Below the pieces are notes generated by a model that was given only the letters and a program-made list of their open reading frames with translations, was not told where the DNA came from and searched no databases. A stretch of DNA of 36,796 nucleotides from a virus: the IMG/VR virus record IMGVR_UViG_3300045454_000143, positions 1 through 36,796 of that record. One strand, 5' to 3'. Numbering within the stretch: the stretch's first letter is position 1; each line of letters starts with the position of its first letter. Positions 6,820 through 36,796 of this stretch are shown one piece after another. The position numbers were made by a program, and so were the translations under genes.

Positions 6820-8028
6820 TCAAGCCCTCATGTTGAGATCGTAAATCGGCGCGTAATAGGTCGCGTTCTCGACCGAGAACGTGTAGCTGCCGACCGAGAA
6901 GCCGTAGCGCGTGCGACCGAAAGGCGTGATCAGGGTCTCTTCGCCGTCCGTGTTGGAAACGGTGACGTTCTCATTCCAGCCGGCCAAGCTGATGATTGGC
7001 TGGCGCGACCAGTTCAGCGTGTAGTTGTCGATGATTGACGAAGAGGAAGAGGACGCTGTCGTTGTTCGCGACACGCTGCTGTTCAGTGCAGCGCGGTTCA
7101 GGAGCGGCGTGATCGTCGCGACGTTCGAGCCGTTCGTCACGACGCGAGCGACGAGCATGCTGTCGTAGGTCGTATCGAAAGCCGGATCGGCTTCTACGCG
7201 CGCCAGCGGATTGTAGGTGCCGTTAGCCAAATCGTTCAGCGTGAACCGGCCGGACGGATAGGACGAGCTCGGCGTGGCCGCGCCTGTGCCAGGCGCGTCC
7301 CAGCGCAAGTGATAGGTCTTGTTCGCCGTTGTCGCGAACGTGCGCGCGGCAATCAGAAACGCATCGGTCGAGAACTTCTTGAAGCCGCGGTGCTGGAAGG
7401 TGTGCGCGGGATCGACGATGACCGATGCGGTACCGGCGGACACGCCCATGACGCCGTTGTTGGTCAGAACTTCGGGGAAGAACGGTGCGGTCGCGCCATC
7501 GATTGCCGCCGCCTGCTGAAGTCCGGCCACCAATTGGAACGACGTACCGTCGTACACGAGGAACGCGATCATATTCGCCTTCAGATCACCTGCTGAAAGC
7601 GCGGTCGCCGCCCCCCGGACGATCGCTTTGGCCGGGAAGTCCTCGACCTCGATGTCGGTGGCGCCCGTGTTGTCGGCAAACACCTTCACGAACAGAGCCA
7701 AGCCGGGGTAGAGCGACGAAACAGGCGGGCTAAAGGTGGCCGCCAGGTTGTCCGCAGTACCAGTGTCAACCCCGAAGCGGATGCCAACCGATTGCACCGC
7801 GCGCCACACCATGTCGTCGGCGTTGTTCGCGTCAATCCCGGAATTGCTGATCAGCGTGCGTAACTGCGCCAGCAAGTCATTGTAAAAGTCGGCGGTGTGC
7901 AGCGTACCGTCGTCCGTCTCCGGCCCGGTGCAATCGATGAACCACGTGTTCGCGCCGCCGCGCGAAATGGTGCGCGCCGGCCGAACCGTTACCGAATGGT
8001 CTGATGCGGGGCCAAGGACGTCGGTCAT
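6820..8028 (-). CDS. tail fibre / baseplate-attached structural protein
   Basis: A 402-residue protein. The N-terminus (RPARTISRGGANTWFIDCTG) leads into an 'LGxTxxxN.L..QL'-like region (FYNDLLAQLRTLISNSGI) seen in proximal fibre or side-fibre proteins. The remainder is beta-rich, with many Thr, Asn and Ser and a late serine run (TTASSSSSSIID). It lies directly after the gp48-like baseplate gene, where Mu-like phages encode fibre S, and before the DUF4376 gene. It probably connects the baseplate to the distal fibre. I see no chaperone or enzymatic domain, and homology is judged from position and composition rather than a strong motif. Confidence 0.65.
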   Translation of the reverse strand: MTDVLGPASDHSVTVRPARTISRGGANTWFIDCTGPETDDGTLHTADFYNDLLAQLRTLISNSGIDANNADDMVWRAVQSVGIRFGVDTGTADNLAATFSPPVSSLYPGLALFVKVFADNTGATDIEVEDFPAKAIVRGAATALSAGDLKANMIAFLVYDGTSFQLVAGLQQAAAIDGATAPFFPEVLTNNGVMGVSAGTASVIVDPAHTFQHRGFKKFSTDAFLIAARTFATTANKTYHLRWDAPGTGAATPSSSYPSGRFTLNDLANGTYNPLARVEADPAFDTTYDSMLVARVVTNGSNVATITPLLNRAALNSSVSRTTTASSSSSSIIDNYTLNWSRQPIISLAGWNENVTVSNTDGEETLITPFGRTRYGFSVGSYTFSVENATYYAPIYDLNMRA

Positions 8029-23972: not shown

Positions 23973-25985
23973 CTATCGGTTCAATCTCGCCGCTAGCTCG
24001 GCGAACTTGTTTCGCGTCGTCGTCGGAGACTTCGGTGCGGTACCGGCCACCACGTTCTCCGCAGCAACTTCGGCCTCGGCGGGCTCTGGCGCGGGGCGCT
24101 TCCCAGCCTCAACCGGCCGAAGATGATGCACGTTGAGCATGAAGCCCGCCGCGGCTGCCATCGCCTCGCAGTCCAGAAAGTGGTTCTTGCGCGACTTCTC
24201 GACCCATATCGGCTTGTTGTTGTCGCCGATCATCCGCACCTCGGCGACGATCTGGCGCGCGTAGAACTCATTCACCTCTTCGTGCACGTGCCAGCCGCCG
24301 AGCGCATCAAGCTGCCAAGTCAGCCTCTCATGAACGAACGATTTCCAGTGATCGGTATCGAGCCGGATCAGATCGAGCCCGTACTTCGCGATGTCCGCCT
24401 GCTTCGTCACGTCCGGCTTCGACTTCACCAGCGGGCGAACCATCGGGTTCGAGGATCCCTTCGTCGGGAACACGAAGCGCTTGAAGCGCCGACAGAACGC
24501 ATAGACCCGATTGAGCGGCAGGTTGATCGGCTTGCCGGGGCGAAAGCCGCTGTCGACGAAGGCCAGTTTGATCAGCTTCCCTCCGATCGGCGTCGTCAAC
24601 TTCGTCGCGAGGTCGTCCCAGACCTCCGGCTGCGACGTTTCTCCGAAGAGTTCGCAGAACTCGATCAGCCACGAGGTTGCACGCGGACCCCATCCGCGCA
24701 CAACGCAAACCAACCGATCTTTCTGCACGTCGATGCCGGCAGTCAGGTGAACAACCCCGGCCGGGATCGTTCCCGGCCGATACGGCTCAGCGCGATTGAC
24801 GATCGCCTTCCAGTCCGGAACCTCTCCGATCTGCGGCGTCCAGAGCTCGCCGGTCTTGTTCGTCGCGCCTTGGATCGTTTCGCTATCGCCGGTTGCCTCG
24901 GCGTTGATCATTTCCTCGACCCGCTCGCCCCAGCTGAGAAACGGGGACGCCAGTCCCGAAACCCAGAGCGACAACGTCATGTTCTCAGGCATGTCCGCTT
25001 CGAGCGGCAACCCGTCGCCGCCGATGCGCATGCCCGGCGCGAAGAACGCTCCAGATGCGTTCATCGCGGCCTTGTTGCCCTCATCGATCACGCAGCCGCT
25101 GACGGGACACTCAAGCCAAGTCCGCTTTCGCGCTTGCGTTGCGGTCGCGCCCTCCGGATAGCGCAGGTACTTCATCCGCGGGATGAACCACTCGTCGCAG
25201 TGCGGGCAACGCCAAGCCCAATGGTGCCGGGTGCCCTGCTGGAATTTCAGCCAGATCGGGCTTTCGACATCACCAGCTTCGGCCACCTTCCAGAACTCCA
25301 GCCCGGTTGCTTCGTCCTTCTCAGTTTCGACGTTGCCGCGCTTTGGGGTCGACGTGACCACGATCTTGCGATCGGCGTAGGTATCCGCGCGGGCCTTGGC
25401 GAGCGTAAACGGGTCGCCCTCGCCCTTCACGCCGCCGACCATCTTGTCGAATTCATCGATGTAGACATCGCCGGCCTGGTCGGAAGCCAGCGATGTTGCG
25501 GAGCCTGCCCACGCGAGGCGGACGCTCACGCCGTTTACAATCTTCCGCGTTTTCTTGTTGCGCTTGCCTCGCGCGACCAGCGCTTCGAGCCGCGGCGCTT
25601 CATCGAACAGCTTCATGAGCCGAGGCTCAAACTGCTCACTGACGAAATCCTTCGACGGCCCGACGTACAGTTGCGGGCGCGGCTTCGTCTCGAGCCTCCA
25701 ACCCATCACGTCGAGAATGCCGTCCGTCTTCGACATTTGCGTGCCGGTGATCAGCACGCAGGTTTCGTAGCGAGGATCCTCGAAGAACTCTTCGAACCGG
25801 ACAATGTACGGCGTCAGCCCGGGATCACGCGGCCCGGGTACGCCGGCGCTTGGCGGGTATGTTCTGTTTCGCCTTGCCCAGACGGGCGGGCTGACCTTCT
25901 CCCTCCGAGCCCACAACAGTGCGAGGCGGCTCAACGAGACTTGCCGCGGCCGCTGCTCGCTCGCCAGCGGCGCCGAACGCTTCAT
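23973..25985 (-). CDS. terminase large subunit, gpA family
   Basis: A 670-residue terminase ATPase/nuclease of the lambda gpA family. Walker A-like GTQMSKTD at about 81-88, Walker B DVYIDEFDK at 173-181, a zinc-binding set CPHC (260-263) plus CPVSGC (293-298), and acidic nuclease residues around D419 (LTAGIDVQKDRLVCVV) and D478 (FVDSGFRPG). It translocates DNA into the prohead and cuts genome ends. The ATG at 25985 has AGGG upstream but overlaps the small subunit gene by 161 bases. A later start closer to PPVWARRNRTYPPSAG would reduce the overlap, so the first ~30 residues are uncertain. Confidence 0.92.
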   Translation of the reverse strand: MKRSAPLASEQRPRQVSLSRLALLWARREKVSPPVWARRNRTYPPSAGVPGPRDPGLTPYIVRFEEFFEDPRYETCVLITGTQMSKTDGILDVMGWRLETKPRPQLYVGPSKDFVSEQFEPRLMKLFDEAPRLEALVARGKRNKKTRKIVNGVSVRLAWAGSATSLASDQAGDVYIDEFDKMVGGVKGEGDPFTLAKARADTYADRKIVVTSTPKRGNVETEKDEATGLEFWKVAEAGDVESPIWLKFQQGTRHHWAWRCPHCDEWFIPRMKYLRYPEGATATQARKRTWLECPVSGCVIDEGNKAAMNASGAFFAPGMRIGGDGLPLEADMPENMTLSLWVSGLASPFLSWGERVEEMINAEATGDSETIQGATNKTGELWTPQIGEVPDWKAIVNRAEPYRPGTIPAGVVHLTAGIDVQKDRLVCVVRGWGPRATSWLIEFCELFGETSQPEVWDDLATKLTTPIGGKLIKLAFVDSGFRPGKPINLPLNRVYAFCRRFKRFVFPTKGSSNPMVRPLVKSKPDVTKQADIAKYGLDLIRLDTDHWKSFVHERLTWQLDALGGWHVHEEVNEFYARQIVAEVRMIGDNNKPIWVEKSRKNHFLDCEAMAAAAGFMLNVHHLRPVEAGKRPAPEPAEAEVAAENVVAGTAPKSPTTTRNKFAELAARLNR

Positions 25986-26379
25986 CGATCTGCCCTTCGA
26001 TCTTCTGCCTGAGCGCCAGGTCGGCGGTCACCCGCGCCGGGATCGCCATCAGGTCGGCGCGCAGTTGGCCGGCGAATTCGTCGATCACGGCCACCGCGGC
26101 CTGCTGCGCCTCGATAACGTGAGACTGCTTTCGGCCCTCGACCCGGAGCGCGATTTCCTCTGCGCGCGCGTCCTGCACCTTGCTTGCCGCCAGTATCCGC
26201 GAAGAACGCCGATCATCGGCGCGAAGCCATCGAATGTAAGCCAGCCGACAGGCATCGACCTCATAGCTGCCGTCGCCCAGCTTCGTCAGAACACCCTCGG
26301 CAGCGAGCTGCGCCACGCGCTGTTTCGAGAGGTCCAGATGCTTGCCGAGTGCCGCGGCTGAAAGCCCCTGTTTCGGCAT
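25825..26379 (-). CDS. terminase small subunit, Nu1-like
   Basis: A 184-residue protein directly upstream of TerL. The N-terminal winged-helix region (LSAAALGKHLDLSKQRVAQL, AAEGVLTKLGDGSYEVD) is the MerR/Nu1-like DNA-binding domain that recognises the packaging site; it is followed by CRLAYIRWLR and a long helix (RILAASKVQDARAEEIALRV), the dimerisation/TerL-contact part seen in this family. The last ~35 residues are basic. I chose ATG 26379 with GGGA eight bases upstream; a GTG two codons earlier is possible. Role: binds cos/pac DNA and recruits the large subunit. Confidence 0.85.
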   Translation of the reverse strand: MPKQGLSAAALGKHLDLSKQRVAQLAAEGVLTKLGDGSYEVDACRLAYIRWLRADDRRSSRILAASKVQDARAEEIALRVEGRKQSHVIEAQQAAVAVIDEFAGQLRADLMAIPARVTADLALRQKIEGQIDEAFGAAGERAAAAASLVEPPRTVVGSEGEGQPARLGKAKQNIPAKRRRTRAA

Positions 26380-26406
26380 CCCCACCGTCCCAGCCCATCT
26401 AGTGAA

Positions 26407-27368: not shown

Positions 27369-27471
27369 GACGGGCTCGCCTGTCGGCGGCCCGGCCGCCT
27401 GTCCCGTCCGTGCTGTGTGTCCGCGCGCGAGGCGCAATGCGGAGCGCGGGGAGGTCGGGCGAAAGGAAGGG
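27369..27471. repeat. 103-bp direct repeat, copy 1
   Basis: Identical over 103 bp to 27759..27861. Contains a strong nested inverted repeat: GACGGG at positions 1-6 pairs with CCCGTC at 35-40, and GGCGGC at 17-22 pairs with GCCGCC at 26-31. The rest of the modules is clearly diverged, so this block looks recently copied, gene-converted or strongly constrained. Confidence 0.9.
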
Positions 27472-27496
27472 GCTAAGTTTCGGTTCTTGGCAAGGG

Positions 27497-27518
27497 GTAC
27501 AAAAAATAAATTTTGTAC
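27497..27518. repeat. AT-rich palindrome in module A
   Basis: GTACAAAA, a 6-nt AATAAA centre, TTTTGTAC: perfect 8-nt arms in an A/T island within GC-rich DNA. The arms are two inverted copies of the module A word. A third word in the same orientation as the right arm follows 13 bp later (27527). Confidence 0.8.
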
Positions 27519-27758
27519 TCTCTCGCTGTACCCGTGCCGTGCTGGGGAGGAAATCACCCATTTATAGCGTCGTAGAGCGGACTTTCTCGCAATTTCACCC
27601 TCTGTGGAAATCGACCCCGGTACACCGTATCTGTATCCGAGTTGTGCCGGGCGGCGGTGCGATTTTGATTGACCGCTTTCCGGCACTCGAAGTGATTTGC
27701 ACGGAACATGGGTACAGAACAGCGGTACAGAGCCGTGTCACCGCGGCGTGTATGGAGC

Positions 27759-27861
27759 GACGGGCTCGCCTGTCGGCGGCCCGGCCGCCTGTCCCGTCCG
27801 TGCTGTGTGTCCGCGCGCGAGGCGCAATGCGGAGCGCGGGGAGGTCGGGCGAAAGGAAGGG
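27759..27861. repeat. 103-bp direct repeat, copy 2
   Basis: Second identical copy, 390 bp from copy 1, at the head of module B. It holds one TGTCCG word (27808..27813), which copy 1 shares at 27418..27423. Recombination between the two copies would delete exactly one module. Confidence 0.9.
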
Positions 27862-27884
27862 CAGATTTTTCTCGCCTGACAAGT

Positions 27885-27909
27885 CGGACAAAAAAATAAA
27901 TCTTGTCCG
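27885..27909. repeat. AT-rich inverted repeat in module B
   Basis: CGGACAA, an 11-nt A/T-rich centre, TTGTCCG: the counterpart of the module A palindrome at the same module position, with word CGGACA replacing GGTACA. A further TGTCCG follows 13 bp after the right arm word, as in module A. Confidence 0.8.
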
Positions 27910-28148
27910 CTCTATTTGTCCGCCGCGTTGGCCGGGAGGAGATCACCCACTTATAGCGGCGTAAGGCCTACATCTTGCGCGTTTAGTCCCTTGTGGAAAT
28001 CACCCCGGCAACATTCTGTTGTCCGCTCGTGTCCGCTGGAACCGGTGCGAATTTCCTTGACGGGAAAAGTCACTCCACCGGTTCGGCAGGTGATTTGGCG
28101 GACAGATCGAGCGGACAAGACGGACAAATCGGTGTCCGCAATGGCCAA

Positions 28149-28484: not shown

Positions 28485-28802
28485 TTACTCCACCTTCAGC
28501 GGCTCGATCTGCGCGAGTTCGTCGCGAAGCTCCTGCTCGACCTGCCAGAGGTCGTAGTCGGCCTGCATGTGCAGCCACAGCTGTGATCCGTTGCCGAGGT
28601 AGACGCCGAGGCGCGCTGCGATATCGGCGGTGACCGGCTTGGGGTCTTTTTCGTCAGTGATCCGGCTCAGCGTCATCGCCGAAACGCCCATGGCGGTTGC
28701 GGCCTTGCGCAAACTGACGCCAGCGTCAGTCAGCGCGGTCATCAGGATGCGACCGGGATGCGTTGGAGGCCGCTTGCGCGGCCGGGCCTTAAACTCTGCC
28801 AT
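28485..28802 (-). CDS. higA: HigA-family antitoxin
   Basis: A 105-residue antitoxin. Basic N-terminus (MAEFKARPRKRPPTHPGRIL) with the HigA hallmark 'P.HPG.iL...l...g.s', then an XRE-type helix-turn-helix (GVSLRKAATAMGVSAMTLSR), DPKPVTADIAARLGVYLGNG and LWLHMQADYDLWQVEQEL, all classical HigA. It neutralises the HigB toxin by direct binding and represses the operon. ATG at 28802 has GGAG upstream; longer in-frame starts run into the toxin gene. A stem-loop lies at the toxin/antitoxin junction. The gene order toxin first is usual for higBA. Confidence 0.9.
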   Translation of the reverse strand: MAEFKARPRKRPPTHPGRILMTALTDAGVSLRKAATAMGVSAMTLSRITDEKDPKPVTADIAARLGVYLGNGSQLWLHMQADYDLWQVEQELRDELAQIEPLKVE

Positions 28803-28813
28803 TTCCGGCTCCC

Positions 28814-28840
28814 CCACCGGGGGCCGTCGCCCCTCAGTGG
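28814..28840 (-). other. stem-loop at the higB/higA junction
   Basis: GGGGC, 4-nt loop, GCCCC (28820..28833), flanked by an outer CCAC (28814..28817) / GTGG (28837..28840). It spans the higB stop codon and the short spacer before higA. No T-run follows, so it is more likely a translational or processing element that tunes antitoxin relative to toxin than a terminator. Confidence 0.45.
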
Positions 28841-29112
28841 TACTGTTCAAAATCGACACGATAGGCGTCTCCTTTATCCCATTCGAAGGTGATACGCCAC
28901 GCACCTGATACCCAGATTGAGTGTCGGACCGGCTTAAACTGCTTAAGCTGATGCAGCCGGTAACCCGGAATATTTAATGCCCGGAGGTCTGTTGCCCGGT
29001 TCAGCACGTCCAGCACTTCGATGCACCGGGCGTGGAATTTCTTGTCAATGCGGGCCGTGTTGCCCGTTTCGAACAGGTCGCTAAGACCCTTGCTTTTGTA
29101 TGTCTTGATCAT
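28834..29112 (-). CDS. higB: HigB-family toxin (RelE superfamily)
   Basis: A 92-residue toxin beginning MIKTYKSKGLSDLFETGNTA, with KFHARCIEVLDVLNRATDLR and LNIPGYRLHQLKQFKPVRHS, then WVSGAWRITFEWDKGDAYRV and an ending YH. These are the features of HigB/'proteic killer' RelE-fold toxins, which cut mRNA on the ribosome; the basic and terminal Tyr/His residues fit the family active site. It is the first gene of a two-gene operon. A near-consensus promoter places the transcript start almost at the ATG, and there is no Shine-Dalgarno sequence, so the toxin may be translated from a leaderless mRNA. In a phage, the pair may stabilise the element or exclude competitors. Confidence 0.92.
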   Translation of the reverse strand: MIKTYKSKGLSDLFETGNTARIDKKFHARCIEVLDVLNRATDLRALNIPGYRLHQLKQFKPVRHSIWVSGAWRITFEWDKGDAYRVDFEQYH

Positions 29113-31914: not shown

Positions 31915-32104
31915 CGTAAATCCCCTGCAACGCCTGCGCGGCCGCCAGCGCCTGCGCGCTGATCGAATATCGGTGGCCATCGATCTCAGCGTACCATTCG
32001 CCGAACTCGGCGAGCACCGTCACGCCCGGCTGATCCCACCAGCCGACAAGCGCCCGCTCGATCTCGGCGAAATCGGATTGGACCTTGAAGGCCGGATCGG
32101 TCAT
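31892..32104 (-). CDS. hypothetical early protein (70 aa)
   Basis: A 70-residue protein with a hydrophobic/aromatic pattern ALVGWWDQPGVTVLAEFGEW followed by DGHRYSISAQALAAAQALQ. ATG at 32104 overlaps the HerA-like gene's TGA (ATGA), so it is probably translated by coupling. No domain recognised. It could be a small partner of the ATPase, which is suggested by position only. Confidence 0.55.
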   Translation of the reverse strand: MTDPAFKVQSDFAEIERALVGWWDQPGVTVLAEFGEWYAEIDGHRYSISAQALAAAQALQGIYDEPAALQ

Positions 32105-33804
32105 GCAGCCTCGCGCAGGAACTCGGAGAGGCGGAAAGACTTGCCGCGATCGTCTTCGATCAGACCCGGATTGCGGATCGCCCTGACGCCCTTGTACCAG
32201 TAGCCATTGCCGGGCTTAGCACCAATCGCTTCCGAAAGTTCTTCGGTGGTGATGGTCTTGTGGCGGTGCTTCGCGAGGTATTGCAGCATCTGCCCGCCCG
32301 GAGCTGTCACCTTGCCGGACCAACTCGCGACGATGTCGGCAAGCGTCAGCGGTTCGCGCGGCAGTCCTTCGGCTTTTTCAGAGCCTTCATCGGTGAGCGC
32401 CACCAAACCGCCTCGTTCGCAGACGAAGCCGCCCTCAACCAGCATCCTTTTTCCCTTGTAGAAGTATCCGTTACCGGAAAGCATCCCAGCGACGATGCAA
32501 GCGTTATCCCAAGAGATCGCGTCGTAACGCGCGATCGCGGCCAGCAGCTTGATCGCTGCACCGTCAAGCGACCCATCGCTCATTGGCTTCGGTTTCGGTG
32601 GTGCTGCAGGACTCGGCTTAGCCATCCGTGCAGGCTCGCCTGCGGGCAAACCAACATCCTCCGCGATCGCGCCCATAATTTTCCAGTGAGCGAGCTCTTC
32701 CTGTGCGACGGCGGCGGTGTTGAAATCCTCGACAGTGGATTTAAAACGGTGAACGGCAGCTTCGATGCCACGTCGCAACCACACGCCTGCAGCTTCCGAT
32801 TGGCCGCGCTCGTAACCTGCCCGCTCAGCCGCAGCTAACGCAGCAGGATCAGGTTCCTTCACGCCATTTAACGTGGCAATGGTTTTGCCTTTTCCGTCAG
32901 TCTTTTGCGATGCCTGTTTTTCTTGATCGCGTGCTGCAGCCATCGCGGCTTCGATCGGGCCGATATCAACTTGTGCAAGCGTCTTCTGCTCAATGCGCGC
33001 CTCGCCCGCCTTCGGCGTGGCTGATGTGTCGAGCGTCTTGATCTTCGGGAAGCGCTGGCGGCAGAGCTCGTTGTCGACCGTCGACCACACCCACGCTTCG
33101 CCAACCGGAAGGCGGGCCAGCGTGTCGAAAACCTCCTTCGCCTGGTCGCGGTCGCCGTTGCCGTCGATCCAAGCTTTAGCCGCATCGCGATCCTGTGGCG
33201 CCGGCAGGCGGTGCATCACAAGCGTGGCCGCTTGCGTCAGCACGTCCTTCGACAGCCGCGCGGGCCGCTGCGTGATGGTTATGAGCCGGAAGCCGCGGAA
33301 GCGACCACGCCGCGCGATCCAATCGATCTCCGCGTGCAAAGCCTTGCTGTCATCGCCCATCGGGTTTTGTGGCGCGAACACGTCCGCCTCTTCCAGCACA
33401 ATCGTGAGCGCGTCCTTGTTCACGCGCCGAAGCTCTCGCAAGAAGGCGAGCAAGAACGATTGCTGCGCTGTCTTGGAAAGATCGGAAATGTCCAGAACGG
33501 CCGGAACGTTATTGCTGGCGATGACCTCAGCCATCGGTACGGCAGCAGCGAGCTCAAGCGGCAGATCGCCATGCACACCGCCGAAGATGGCGACGGGGTA
33601 GCCCGGGCCCTTGCCATCGGCCGCGGTGCGCAGTCCGGCCCAGACGCCGAGAGGATCTAGGATAAGCACTCTCCGCTGCATGACGAGCAGGCGCTCGACA
33701 ATGCCCTTCGAGGTGTACGTCTTGCCGCCACCCTTGCGGCCGAGCACTGCGATATCCTCTTCGAGGTAGGCGTCAGGGAGAAGCACGGCGGGCTGCTGCG
33801 TCAT
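32101..33804 (-). CDS. HerA/FtsK-like P-loop ATPase (DUF87-type)
   Basis: A 567-residue ATPase. Walker A GRKGGGKT at residues 22-29, Walker B-like ALTIVLEEADVF at about 132-143, and the motif ITITQRPARLS at 175-185, characteristic of the HerA/VirD4/FtsK-like hexameric motor class ('...TQrp..l...v...'). The first 300 residues form the motor. The C-terminal ~200 residues carry two repeats, GNGYFYKGKRMLVEGGF and GNGYWYKGVRAIRNPGL, which look like paired winged-helix units. In phages, such ATPases are found in early/replication regions and may act in DNA processing or partition. AGGGGG is upstream of its ATG. Confidence 0.85.
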   Translation of the reverse strand: MTQQPAVLLPDAYLEEDIAVLGRKGGGKTYTSKGIVERLLVMQRRVLILDPLGVWAGLRTAADGKGPGYPVAIFGGVHGDLPLELAAAVPMAEVIASNNVPAVLDISDLSKTAQQSFLLAFLRELRRVNKDALTIVLEEADVFAPQNPMGDDSKALHAEIDWIARRGRFRGFRLITITQRPARLSKDVLTQAATLVMHRLPAPQDRDAAKAWIDGNGDRDQAKEVFDTLARLPVGEAWVWSTVDNELCRQRFPKIKTLDTSATPKAGEARIEQKTLAQVDIGPIEAAMAAARDQEKQASQKTDGKGKTIATLNGVKEPDPAALAAAERAGYERGQSEAAGVWLRRGIEAAVHRFKSTVEDFNTAAVAQEELAHWKIMGAIAEDVGLPAGEPARMAKPSPAAPPKPKPMSDGSLDGAAIKLLAAIARYDAISWDNACIVAGMLSGNGYFYKGKRMLVEGGFVCERGGLVALTDEGSEKAEGLPREPLTLADIVASWSGKVTAPGGQMLQYLAKHRHKTITTEELSEAIGAKPGNGYWYKGVRAIRNPGLIEDDRGKSFRLSEFLREAA

Positions 33805-33816
33805 GGCGTTCCCCCT

Positions 33817-34230
33817 TCAGAGTACGTAGGCGACGGTGTCGGCGCGGCTGCCGCCGCCCTCGAGGTGCTTGCCGAAGCTCTCGAAGAACTGCTCCCGCCG
33901 CTCGCGATCGAAGTCGTCAAGTGTTTTGGGTTTCGACGCCAGCCATGATCCTTCGATATCTCCCCACGTCGGCGAGCAGGCTTCGCAGAGGATCGGGCCA
34001 TCATCGCAGCGGTGGCCCTTGTCGCCGATCAGCAACAGGCGCTCGCAACCCTCGCACTCGCCCGCGACTTCAAGGCCGCGCTTGTCGAGCAGGATTTCGC
34101 GGCACATCACGACGCCGTCCATTGCGAGCTTCAAGGGCTTCATCGCGCTGAGGATCGAGGCCTCGGCGTCTTCGAGCATCTTCAGGCCAGCCTGCAGTTC
34201 CTTCCGGCCTTCCTCAGTCAATTCGATCAT
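33817..34230 (-). CDS. zinc-ribbon-like hypothetical protein (137 aa)
   Basis: A 137-residue protein. Helical N-terminal ~45 residues (RKELQAGLKMLEDAEASILS), then a cysteine cluster: CEGC (59-62), C75 in GHRCDDGPI and CEAC (82-85), consistent with a treble-clef or zinc-ribbon fold. The C-terminal part (LDDFDRERREQFFESFGKHL) is charged. ATGA overlap with the DUF5131 gene. One of several small cysteine-pair proteins here. Function unknown, possibly nucleic-acid or protein binding. Confidence 0.65.
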   Translation of the reverse strand: MIELTEEGRKELQAGLKMLEDAEASILSAMKPLKLAMDGVVMCREILLDKRGLEVAGECEGCERLLLIGDKGHRCDDGPILCEACSPTWGDIEGSWLASKPKTLDDFDRERREQFFESFGKHLEGGGSRADTVAYVL

Positions 34231-35324
34231 GCTGCAATCCTCGCTGTTGGAAATTCCAGATGTGCGACGCCGTCGAGCGTCTTGGGATCACGTTTTCCGA
34301 CGCGGTCCATTTCGGAGCCCGCACCGCCATTCTCGTTTGCGCCGCCGATGCCGCCTCCGGTACGACCGTTGGGCCAGACGCAGATATCCCCGCGCATACC
34401 TCGCACCGGCGCATACTCACCCCACTGCTTGAAGAAGAACGGCACGCCCTCAGCCGCGCACTGGTCGCGGAGTGTTCGCGCCCATTGGGGATGCATCGGC
34501 CGCGCGTCACCGCCGCTCTCGCCGCCGCAAATGACCCAGTCGAGTTTCGGATACGGCACATCCCGGTCGCAGTGAGGAAGGTGGTGCCAGCGCAACGCGC
34601 TTCCGAAGTATCCGGGCGACAGCGTGAACTTGACCTCATCAAGATCGATTGGCCCGATCAGCGGCTCGGCGCTGATGAAGCGGATCGCCGCCGGCGTCGC
34701 CATCAGATCGGGGATGCGCTGATTGGCTTCCTTCTGCCGCTCGGTCGACACGCCCAGCCAGACGTTCGGCAGCGGCCACTGATCGAGCCGCACGCGCGGA
34801 CCCGCAGGTGCAAATTCTTCGTTGATGCCTGGCGCGATCAGCACCATCTGCAGTTCTTGATTTATAGTCATATCGCAAACGAGCTCATAGACCCGCCGCG
34901 GTGTCTCCGGATCGGACAGGTAGGCGCGCATTTCGCGCGACCGCTTCGTGAGAAGCTGAAATGTGATGTGTGGAGCGAGCGCCATTGTCGCGAACGTCCG
35001 ATCAATCCAATCGCGGCGCATGCCTTGATGGAAGAGGTCGGACATGCTGTTCACGAAAACCTTCTTCGGCTTTCGCCAGTGCAGCGGCTTCTCCCAGATG
35101 TGATCCGGCGCGCTGACCAGCTTTCCGGTCCAGATCGCCTTTCCCTTCACATGCTTGACCGTTCCGGCGTAGTGCGTCTCGCGTTTCAGCCCGGCCGCGC
35201 ATCGGATTTGGCGCATCGCCTCTTCCATTGCGAAGCAGCCTTTGCAGCCTGGCGAATAGACCGAGCAACCTGCCACCGGGTTCCAAGTCGCATCGGTCCA
35301 CTGAATTCCGGTCTGATCAGCCAT
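34227..35324 (-). CDS. phage Gp37/Gp68 family protein (DUF5131)
   Basis: A 365-residue protein matching the phage Gp37Gp68/DUF5131 family. Diagnostic parts: TGIQWTDATWNPVAGC, C20/C27/C30 in CSVYSPGCKGCFA (a three-cysteine cluster suggesting a metal or iron-sulfur site), FVNSMSDLFHQGM, LLTKRSREM, WLGVSTERQKEANQRIPDL with AIRFISAEPLIGPIDL, and VICGGESGGDARPMHPQWAR with FFFKQWGEYAPV. The pattern resembles radical-SAM-like TIM barrels, yet the biochemical function is not established to my knowledge. TGATG overlap with the RepA-like gene. A frequent phage early gene, so the family call is firm while the role is open. Confidence 0.92.
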   Translation of the reverse strand: MADQTGIQWTDATWNPVAGCSVYSPGCKGCFAMEEAMRQIRCAAGLKRETHYAGTVKHVKGKAIWTGKLVSAPDHIWEKPLHWRKPKKVFVNSMSDLFHQGMRRDWIDRTFATMALAPHITFQLLTKRSREMRAYLSDPETPRRVYELVCDMTINQELQMVLIAPGINEEFAPAGPRVRLDQWPLPNVWLGVSTERQKEANQRIPDLMATPAAIRFISAEPLIGPIDLDEVKFTLSPGYFGSALRWHHLPHCDRDVPYPKLDWVICGGESGGDARPMHPQWARTLRDQCAAEGVPFFFKQWGEYAPVRGMRGDICVWPNGRTGGGIGGANENGGAGSEMDRVGKRDPKTLDGVAHLEFPTARIAA

Positions 35325-36796
35325 CAGTAGAAATCCTTCAGATCGTCGTCGCCCGGCCCTTCGCCTTCATCGGTGAACATGTCGCGCGTCTTCCGCTGCG
35401 TCGCCGGCACGCCCTGCACCGGCTTGCCTGTCCACCAAATGAATGGGGCGTGGCAGCCGATCACCTTGACGTGCATCAAGCCTTCGCGCGCTCGGCGAAC
35501 GGCCATCTTCACGCGGTTCTTATGACGCTCGCGGCCCTCGTCCGTGTTGTCGTCCTCACGCAGCATCTTCTGCTTGATCCGGTGCTTGACCGCATCGTAA
35601 TCGACCACGCGATCCAGCGACCTCGGCAGGCCTAGCTCCGGCGGAGGCGGAACACCTTGTTCGGCTGCGGCGTCAATCACGCACTGGATGAACATCTGCT
35701 CATTGCGCGAAATCTTTACGCCGTAGCCCTTCTTGCCGTCCTGATCGGTGGTGACAGCCTCGCTGATCTCGGTCATCACCGGCTTTGCAACGACGCAGGA
35801 AGTGCGGGCTTTTCCAAACTTGTTCGTCGTCCCGTCCTCAACGACGTGCAGAACGAAGTCGAACTCGTCGCCGTCTTGCCCTTCGCGCTGCTTTTGAACC
35901 TTCAGGGTCCGGATCGCTCGCCCCTCTTCGTCCTTGATCGGGATGCTTTCCTTCGCGCTGATCGCTTTGAGTTTGCGCGAGACGCGCAGCGTCGTCTCGA
36001 TATTGTTCGTCAGCTGCTCGTTGCCGCGGTGCTTGCCCTGCGCGTTCGTGTGCCCGATCAGCAGAAGTGCAGCCTCGGTCTCGGTGACGATGCGCTTGTA
36101 GTTTTCACGGATTTTCGAGGTCGCTTCGCTATCTATCTCACTCGCGCCGGGCGTCCCAGCGTTGTGAGTGTCAACAATAACCAAGCCCAGCTTGACACCG
36201 TTGAAGTGGGCGCGGGCGATGCCGATGATCTCAGCGATCAAGGCGCCGATTGCATCCTCAGCTGGCCAAAGCCGCGCCGGCTTCGTCAGCACGGCGAACG
36301 GAAGGCCTTCAAGCGGCAGATCGTGGAATTTTCGATACGCCCGCATGCGCGCCGTTGCGCCACGCTCGGCTTCGTACGCCAGCCAGATCACGCCGCGCGG
36401 TTCGAGCACGCGACGGCCGAAGAAGCCCTTGCCTCGCGCAATCGACATTCCGAGATGGTAGCCGAGGAACGACTTGCCCGTCTGGCTTTCGCCCATCATC
36501 AGGCAGAGCTCACGCTCCGGTATCAGATCCTCGACAAGGTACTCATAAGCTTCGCCCGGGTCGTTCTGGTCGGCCCATAGCTTGAGGCCCATGCGAGAGT
36601 TGAACGGCTCGTTTGTAGGAAACGTGTCGTTCGCGTCGCCGACAGCGCGTCGCTCCGCGGCTTGGAACAGCTGGCGCGCGATATCGACTGCATCGATATC
36701 GACCGGCGCATCGGCCATCATCCGGGCCACGTACTGCGACACCGTGATATCGCCGGTGATCTTCGCCGTCGGGTCACCACCGAGTGCTTCTACAAT
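35324..36796 (-). CDS. RepA/AAA_25-like ATPase, 5' end outside the window
   Basis: The reading frame stays open to the window edge: 18 codons precede the GTG at 36742, with no stop, no good start and no ribosome site, so the gene almost certainly begins beyond 36796. At least 490 residues are visible. ELCLMMGESQTGKSF carries the Walker A motif, followed by VIWLAYEAERGATARMRAYR, LGLVIVDTHNAGTPGASEID (Walker B) and LLIGHTNAQGKHRGNEQLTN, the pattern of hexameric RepA/RecA-fold (AAA_25) helicase-like ATPases in plasmid and phage replication. The C-terminal ~150 residues are a basic helical part (EDNTDEGRERHKNRVKMAVR). It may be the replicative helicase/initiator of the phage. No polymerase is visible in the window. 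Confidence 0.85.
   Translation of the reverse strand: MVEALGGDPTAKITGDITVSQYVARMMADAPVDIDAVDIARQLFQAAERRAVGDANDTFPTNEPFNSRMGLKLWADQNDPGEAYEYLVEDLIPERELCLMMGESQTGKSFLGYHLGMSIARGKGFFGRRVLEPRGVIWLAYEAERGATARMRAYRKFHDLPLEGLPFAVLTKPARLWPAEDAIGALIAEIIGIARAHFNGVKLGLVIVDTHNAGTPGASEIDSEATSKIRENYKRIVTETEAALLLIGHTNAQGKHRGNEQLTNNIETTLRVSRKLKAISAKESIPIKDEEGRAIRTLKVQKQREGQDGDEFDFVLHVVEDGTTNKFGKARTSCVVAKPVMTEISEAVTTDQDGKKGYGVKISRNEQMFIQCVIDAAAEQGVPPPPELGLPRSLDRVVDYDAVKHRIKQKMLREDDNTDEGRERHKNRVKMAVRRAREGLMHVKVIGCHAPFIWWTGKPVQGVPATQRKTRDMFTDEGEGPGDDDLKDFY

Follow-up and report, generated by a model that had tools for sequence, protein, structure and literature searches.

Two tandem homologous modules with different iteron-like words in one phage genome, a putative pair of paralogous replication origins

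Origins of the PICI/SaPI type carry short iterons, arranged in two sets and in both orientations around an AT-rich tract, and the iteron sequence varies between elements (PMC6092414, PMC7581432). The SaPI Rep protein recognises its downstream iteron origin via its C-terminal domain, and in the SCCmec protein Cch2 the C-terminal domain alone binds the iterons located downstream of the gene (PMC7581432). The locus described here has its precedent in PICI/SaPI origins; what is new is the presence of two putative origin alleles in one phage.

The alpha protein of phage P4 is a primase-helicase which binds the iterons of ori1 and crr via its C-terminal domain. The crr region is a pair of direct repeats carrying iterons, with the same word in both copies, whereas the two repeats analysed here carry different words. 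Plasmid RSF1010 uses a separate iteron-binding protein, RepC.

The window, i.e. the whole stretch of 36,796 nt that was analysed, is the 36.8-kb virus record IMGVR_UViG_3300045454_000143. It belongs to a contractile-tailed phage, as evidenced by a tail sheath, a lambda-type portal and a GpA-type terminase, and nearly every nameable gene lies on the minus strand. The twin modules occupy a gap of about 1 kb between an early and a late block. The early block includes a HigB/HigA-like pair (XRE/HigA-like gene at 28485-28904, near the modules), a DUF5131 gene, a HerA/FtsK-like ATPase (32101-33804) and an AAA_25 helicase. The late block, across from the helicase side of the modules, starts with the small (25825-26385, minus strand, PHROG 57) and large (23973-25985, minus strand, GpA type according to Pfam) terminase subunits. 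A tRNA scan of the window found none and an Rfam search returned nothing.

The two modules, A (27369-27758) and B (27759-28148), are homologous and stand in tandem. Each begins with an exact copy of a GC-rich 103-nt block (27369-27471 and 27759-27861, 100% identity, spacing 390), followed by a 287-nt core (27472-27758 in A, 27862-28148 in B). The cores align end to end: with the words masked, the alignment score is 149.5 against 44.8 for the null (sd 9.7, maximum 71, 300 shuffles), and 162 of the 201 aligned non-word positions (81%) are identical. The proposal of two tandem homologous modules of about 390 bp, made in the preliminary description, is thus borne out, and the homology clearly extends beyond the 103-nt block.

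Each core is enriched in its own short word. Core A contains five copies of GGTACA/TGTACC plus one TGTACT and no CGGACA, core B nine copies of CGGACA/TGTCCG and no GGTACA. Dinucleotide shuffles of the cores gave means of 0.15 (A) and 0.21 (B), and never more than 3 in 3000 shuffles. When the whole window was scanned for 6-mer clusters without bias, the top cluster was CGGACA in module B (p 1e-13), and GGTACA in module A reached p 4.5e-7. The ten B words reported earlier indeed lie far above chance; nine of them belong to module B proper, and the tenth (TGTCCG at 27808) is located in the 103-nt block, whose other copy places the same word in module A as well (27418).

The arrangement of the words is also largely shared. 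In module A (27496-27532), GGTACA (27496) and TGTACT (27514) form an inverted pair around the AT tract AAAAATAAATTT, followed by TGTACC (27527); in module B (27885-27922), CGGACA (27885) and TGTCCG (27904) flank AAAAAATAAATCT, with a further TGTCCG at 27917. Beyond these inverted words, each core has a second word set on its far side. In A it is a direct pair of GGTACA on the plus strand (27711-27729, words at 27711 and 27724, 13 bp apart), in B a group at 28099-28138 with CGGACA at 28099, 28112 and 28121 and TGTCCG at 28133. The 13-bp spacings noted previously hold throughout (27514/27527 and 27904/27917, 27711/27724 and 28099/28112). In the masked alignment, four of the six A words fall within 1 bp of a B word; the fifth (27527) sits in an alignment gap, yet has the same spacing as its partner. 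Correspondence of places, which had been described as general, therefore holds for most words and fails for some: GGTACA at 27619-27624 (plus strand) has no B partner, and the B words at 28020, 28030, 28121 and 28133 have no exact A partner. The first two of these form a TGTCCG pair (28020-28035, minus strand) opposite degenerate A sequence.

Non-word elements are conserved too. The box GGAGGAAATCACCCATTTATAGCG of module A (27546-27569) is kept in B (27935-27958), and a similar box, GAGGAAATCACC, occurs twice in the related contig L018. The GTGATTTG box is found on the plus strand in both modules (27692-27699 and 28090-28097). A TGATTT box lies within the origin region of modules A and B and of L017, L018, L291, L088, L354 and L293 despite their differing words; it is absent in L061, L364 and L296. 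Searches of viral and bacterial contigs with the pattern ATCACCCAYTTATAGCG gave chance-like matches only, the match in L004 being situated in unrelated sequence, and a DNA similarity search of the modules against annotated phages found none. A pattern search of contigs with the 103-nt block hit four unrelated contigs and no homologous one. The block itself contains a mirror (not inverted) repeat, GCGCGAGGCG-CAAT-GCGGAGCGCG, at about 27427-27450 and 27817-27840, as well as a GGCGGCC..GGCCGCC palindrome. The minus-strand RNA of its first copy folds with z = -2.1.

We propose that the word reader is the AAA_25 (RepA-like) helicase encoded at 35324-36796 on the minus strand, which matches Pfam PF13481 with 83.1 bits (curated cut-off 27, E 2.6e-23). 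Its reading frame meets no stop up to the contig end, and in alignments the protein falls inside longer relatives; the N-terminus is thus cut off. In the AF2 model (mean pLDDT 75.7 for the whole helicase, 78.4 for the tail alone), C-terminal residues 346-437, numbered from a GTG start, form a winged helix whose predicted recognition helix comprises residues 401-424 and includes Asn409. A PDB fold search with the tail model returned the E2F-DP winged-helix DNA-binding domain as best match (E 0.014). The ATPase core resembles RSF1010 RepA (1nlf_A, E 2.9e-10; TM-score normalised to target 0.71-0.72 for PDB entries 1nlf and 1g8y); in contrast to the RSF1010 system, the window helicase itself carries the winged-helix tail. 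Sequence search of the PDB gave nothing meaningful, and the helicase as a single query in viral contigs recovered the L017 contig again and nothing else. It is the only AAA_25 helicase found in the 36.8-kb fragment, which ends inside its gene, and no second initiator was seen there.

Next, we looked at relatives identified with the large terminase as query. L017 and L018, whose terminases are 68-69% identical to that of the window, both carry a GGGGACA cluster on both strands in the same early/late region. Three relatives found in this way have one dominant cluster each, upstream of the terminase genes in the early/late region: GGGGACA x8 in G001/L017, GGGGACA x10 in G002/L018 and GGTGCA x11 in G004/L034. 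An AAA_25 helicase is encoded upstream of the cluster in G001, G002 and G004. A search of phage genomes for the same layout with other words had been proposed as a check; judging by these genomes, the layout is conserved, the word varies, and there is ordinarily one word per genome. In the window and its close relatives, about 7-12 kb separate the cluster from the helicase gene (about 7 kb in the window), unlike the usual arrangement. The G002 helicase (L281:1018-2754) has about 110 extra N-terminal residues resembling, by eye, the DnaB N-terminal domain, which suggests a protein composed of a DnaB-type N-terminus, a RepA-like core and a winged-helix tail.

The usual arrangement became apparent when viral contigs were scanned for three TGTCCCC, TGTCCG, GGTACA or GGTGCA words close together. 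Such clusters occur on at least hundreds of viral contigs. Among the matches listed, 66 loci had dense two-strand TGTCC-type clusters, and one protein family adjoining the cluster was common to 28 of these 66. A profile built from this family detected AAA_25 helicases in 33 of the 66 loci, and in 31 of these 33 the helicase stop codon lies in the cluster or within 150 bp of it, again among the matches listed. N-termini of these helicases vary (Prim-Pol with or without PriCT-2, or Toprim), so the constant partner of the clusters is the helicase with its tail. Of the sampled genes whose 3' end lies at other clusters, several encode DUF3987, VapE-like, D5/DUF5906 or DUF927 primase-helicases, the last with a Cch-type HTH; other sampled cluster-abutting genes had no Pfam match or unrelated matches. 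Where scan matches to GGTACA/GGTGCA and TGTCC, as in many cases, recurred on a single strand at a fixed spacing of 6, 9 or 15 bp, they resembled coding repeats and for that reason were not counted as origins.

Both words of the window recur in this class. CGGACA is the cluster word in many other loci. GGTACA occurs eleven times right after the primase-helicase stop codon in Idiomarinaceae phage 1N2-2, and forms two-strand clusters in at least 11 AAA_25 loci among the matches listed from the GGTACA/GGTGCA triplet scans. Each of the two words is thus used singly, as a putative origin word, in other phages. Further words directly after the helicase stop codon in named phages are GCGGAGAT in RHph_N65, TTTATAC in CRP-821, GCGTGACA in RHph_X2_25, GGTTCA in two Alteromonas phages and GGGACA in CGphi29 and ct3Oc712. 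No 3' word cluster was found in AAA_25 relatives from Mycobacterium, Gordonia and Kosakonia phages and Salmonella phage Lumpael. An AGGCTG cluster near gp39 of BFK20 was considered as a set of iterons and rejected, being a coding repeat.

Each window module thus resembles PICI/SaPI origins in that one short word recurs many times, facing either way, within a small non-coding region, and in both of them inverted words flank an AT tract while a second set lies across the core. In the wider family of phage clusters, the putative origin is likewise located next to the 3' end of the initiator gene. In the window, by contrast, it is not immediately 3' of the helicase gene, from which it lies about 7 kb away, and for this reason we do not file it as a PICI origin, only as one predicted to work like it. 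The host is moreover a phage and not a satellite, the two tandem alleles have different words, and the helicase is of the AAA_25/RecA fold and not of the DUF927/D5/Pri-Rep type, although DUF927/D5 types adjoin the same kind of clusters in other contigs. The SCCmec Cch2 system differs in its helicase family, in having three iterons and in residing on a cassette element instead of a phage.

Comparison of two closely related contigs provided a natural experiment. L354, with a GGTACA cluster, and L088, a GGGACA locus, share 94% identity over 2.85 kb. The six words that align all differ at the same position, a G-to-T change from GGGGACA (L088) to GGGTACA (L354), and the intervening origin sequence is largely unchanged, its AT-rich centre excepted. 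The two helicases are 96% identical, with 22 differences, half of which are concentrated in an 18-residue winged-helix patch at the recognition helix, GKGMSNDAAKKALQNGTN versus SRGMKENSAKQALKDQPN: 11 of 18 residues differ within the patch and 11 of 538 elsewhere (hypergeometric p 6e-13 for that chosen patch). This pair, which displays the same substitution of all words at once as modules A and B, is the strongest evidence suggesting that the helicase tail reads the words. Together with the winged-helix model, it makes the C-terminal domain of the window helicase a putative iteron reader. Of the readers proposed in the preliminary description (a CII-like protein, HigA, TerS and the RepA-like ATPase), the evidence points to the RepA-like ATPase only. 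Two more relatives of L354, contigs L123 and L127, are of the GGGACA type.

One position of the recognition helix varies with the word. It is acidic (Asp/Glu) in 17 of 23 reader groups whose word has G at position 3 and in none of nine with T there (Fisher p 2e-4), and Asn occupies it in four of the nine T-readers and in none of the 23 G-readers (p 0.0035); the Fisher values overstate independence, since the reader groups are related sequences. For these counts, alignments were read by eye, near-identical sequences were grouped and proteins that aligned poorly were omitted; Asn was entered for the L327 group, where the position is hard to align and its offset uncertain. Of five phages examined later, two with Ala or Ser have a GGGACA word and one has no cluster. 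A non-acidic residue alone does not, therefore, predict a T word, and a one-residue specificity code was rejected as too simple. Whole-tail swaps may be a second route of specificity change, as suggested by two primase-helicases (L143:630-2696 and L364:45-2156) which are 66% identical in the body and differ in their winged-helix tails, with GGGACA words in L143 and GGTACA words in L364.

Taken together, the modules are probably two tandem paralogous replication origins, whose iterons would be bound by the C-terminal winged helix of the AAA_25 helicase, A and B representing specificity alleles. This reading is the best supported, since the words belong to a class adjoining primase-helicases, both are used singly elsewhere and words and helix have been exchanged together between L088 and L354. 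Twin origins with different initiators or alleles had been among the roles initially suggested; the origins and alleles remain the favoured reading, and a second initiator finds no support in a fragment with one AAA_25 helicase. GC skew, put forward for mapping the origin, has no clear switch at the modules and did not localise it.

According to this proposal, each origin copy would have an AT tract surrounded by six to nine iteron words of either orientation, together with the conserved non-word boxes. Helicase tails would bind the iterons on both sides of the tract, the helicase ring would assemble and open it, and replication would start. Words and recognition helix would evolve together, GGTACA (A) and CGGACA (B) being two specificity alleles of the same origin that now stand side by side. 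They could have come together by unequal recombination between related phages, the exact 103-nt block serving as their common border, or by duplication followed by word turnover. The extra module may be a remnant, or may make this genome responsive to a helicase of the other type.

The patch of the window helicase aligns at Asn409, where acidic residues go with GGACA-type words, and module A (GGTACA) is accordingly predicted to be the cognate one, an assignment that we favour with some reserve. Module B would then belong to the other allele, either as an origin no longer in use or as one fired by a related phage's helicase. The larger number of intact words in module B is hard to square with A as the active module and is left unexplained by this assignment.

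As a sub-case of the twin-origin explanation, only one module may be functional, the other being a decaying relic of origin replacement, kept briefly after a change of helicase allele. Presence of a single helicase, the rarity of two-word origins and the degeneracy of some A positions matching B words agree with this possibility, which we give somewhat less than an even chance; five exact words remain in A and nine intact ones in B, where decay is not evident, and the conserved boxes persist in both modules. It appears rather unlikely that a bilingual origin is kept on purpose, to be fired both by the phage's own helicase (GGTACA) and by that of a related co-infecting or resident phage (CGGACA-type), or to allow exchange of helicase alleles by recombination without loss of a matching origin.

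Equally doubtful is a single helicase with relaxed specificity, reading both words while the tandem copies raise iteron dosage. Only one helicase gene is visible and both words fit the frame xG(G/T)ACA, but the surveyed families use one word per origin, the words of the two cores are cleanly separated with no cross-words, and in L088/L354 a one-base word change already goes with a swap of the helix.

It is very improbable that the words serve a transcription regulator of the early/late junction, for example a late-gene activator or the HigA/XRE repressor, as duplicated operators of diverged specificity. The modules do sit between early and late genes, close to the XRE/HigA-like gene, and a twin late-gene control region had been suggested for them. 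Across unrelated phages, however, the word class tracks primase-helicase genes and not a regulator family, and the word swap between L088 and L354 is matched by a swap in the helicase recognition helix. No sigma-70-like promoter sites were found, and the conserved feature of the relatives is the word cluster, so this suggestion is not supported.

A chimera, in which metagenome assembly fused two strains carrying different origin alleles at the 103-nt repeat, is just as improbable. In its favour, the contig comes from a virus collection, an exact repeat of this length can mislead assemblers and the tandem was found in no second contig. A plain switch at the repeat, however, would leave a single core and not block-A-block-B, an order that needs some real molecule with core A followed by the block.

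The two-strand clusters that were checked for a second word, a set chosen by words and hence no basis for a frequency estimate, included no case of two alleles in homologous tandem modules besides the window. Two strong word clusters occurred at one other surveyed locus only, L268. These are dense and adjacent, GGTGCA x9 and GGACAA x11 at L268:6755-6937 and 7101-7372. They do not align to each other, and L268 was rejected as a second twin origin. No AAA_25 helicase was detected at this locus, which possibly represents a second kind of two-word origin.

In origin evolution it is an open question how an initiator can change in step with all of its sites, when each change on its own should break replication. 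L088 and L354 represent a finished switch in otherwise near-identical phages; the window, where the two words stand in tandem, may be an intermediate. Between them, the pair and the window bring the question within reach of experiments on two small protein domains and short DNA.

Two observations concern the early block. The DUF5131 gene (34227-35324) lies directly downstream of the AAA_25 helicase gene. The HerA/FtsK-like ATPase is similar to the terminase large subunit family PHROG 2666, besides the GpA terminase of the same phage, and is kept in L017 at 65%.
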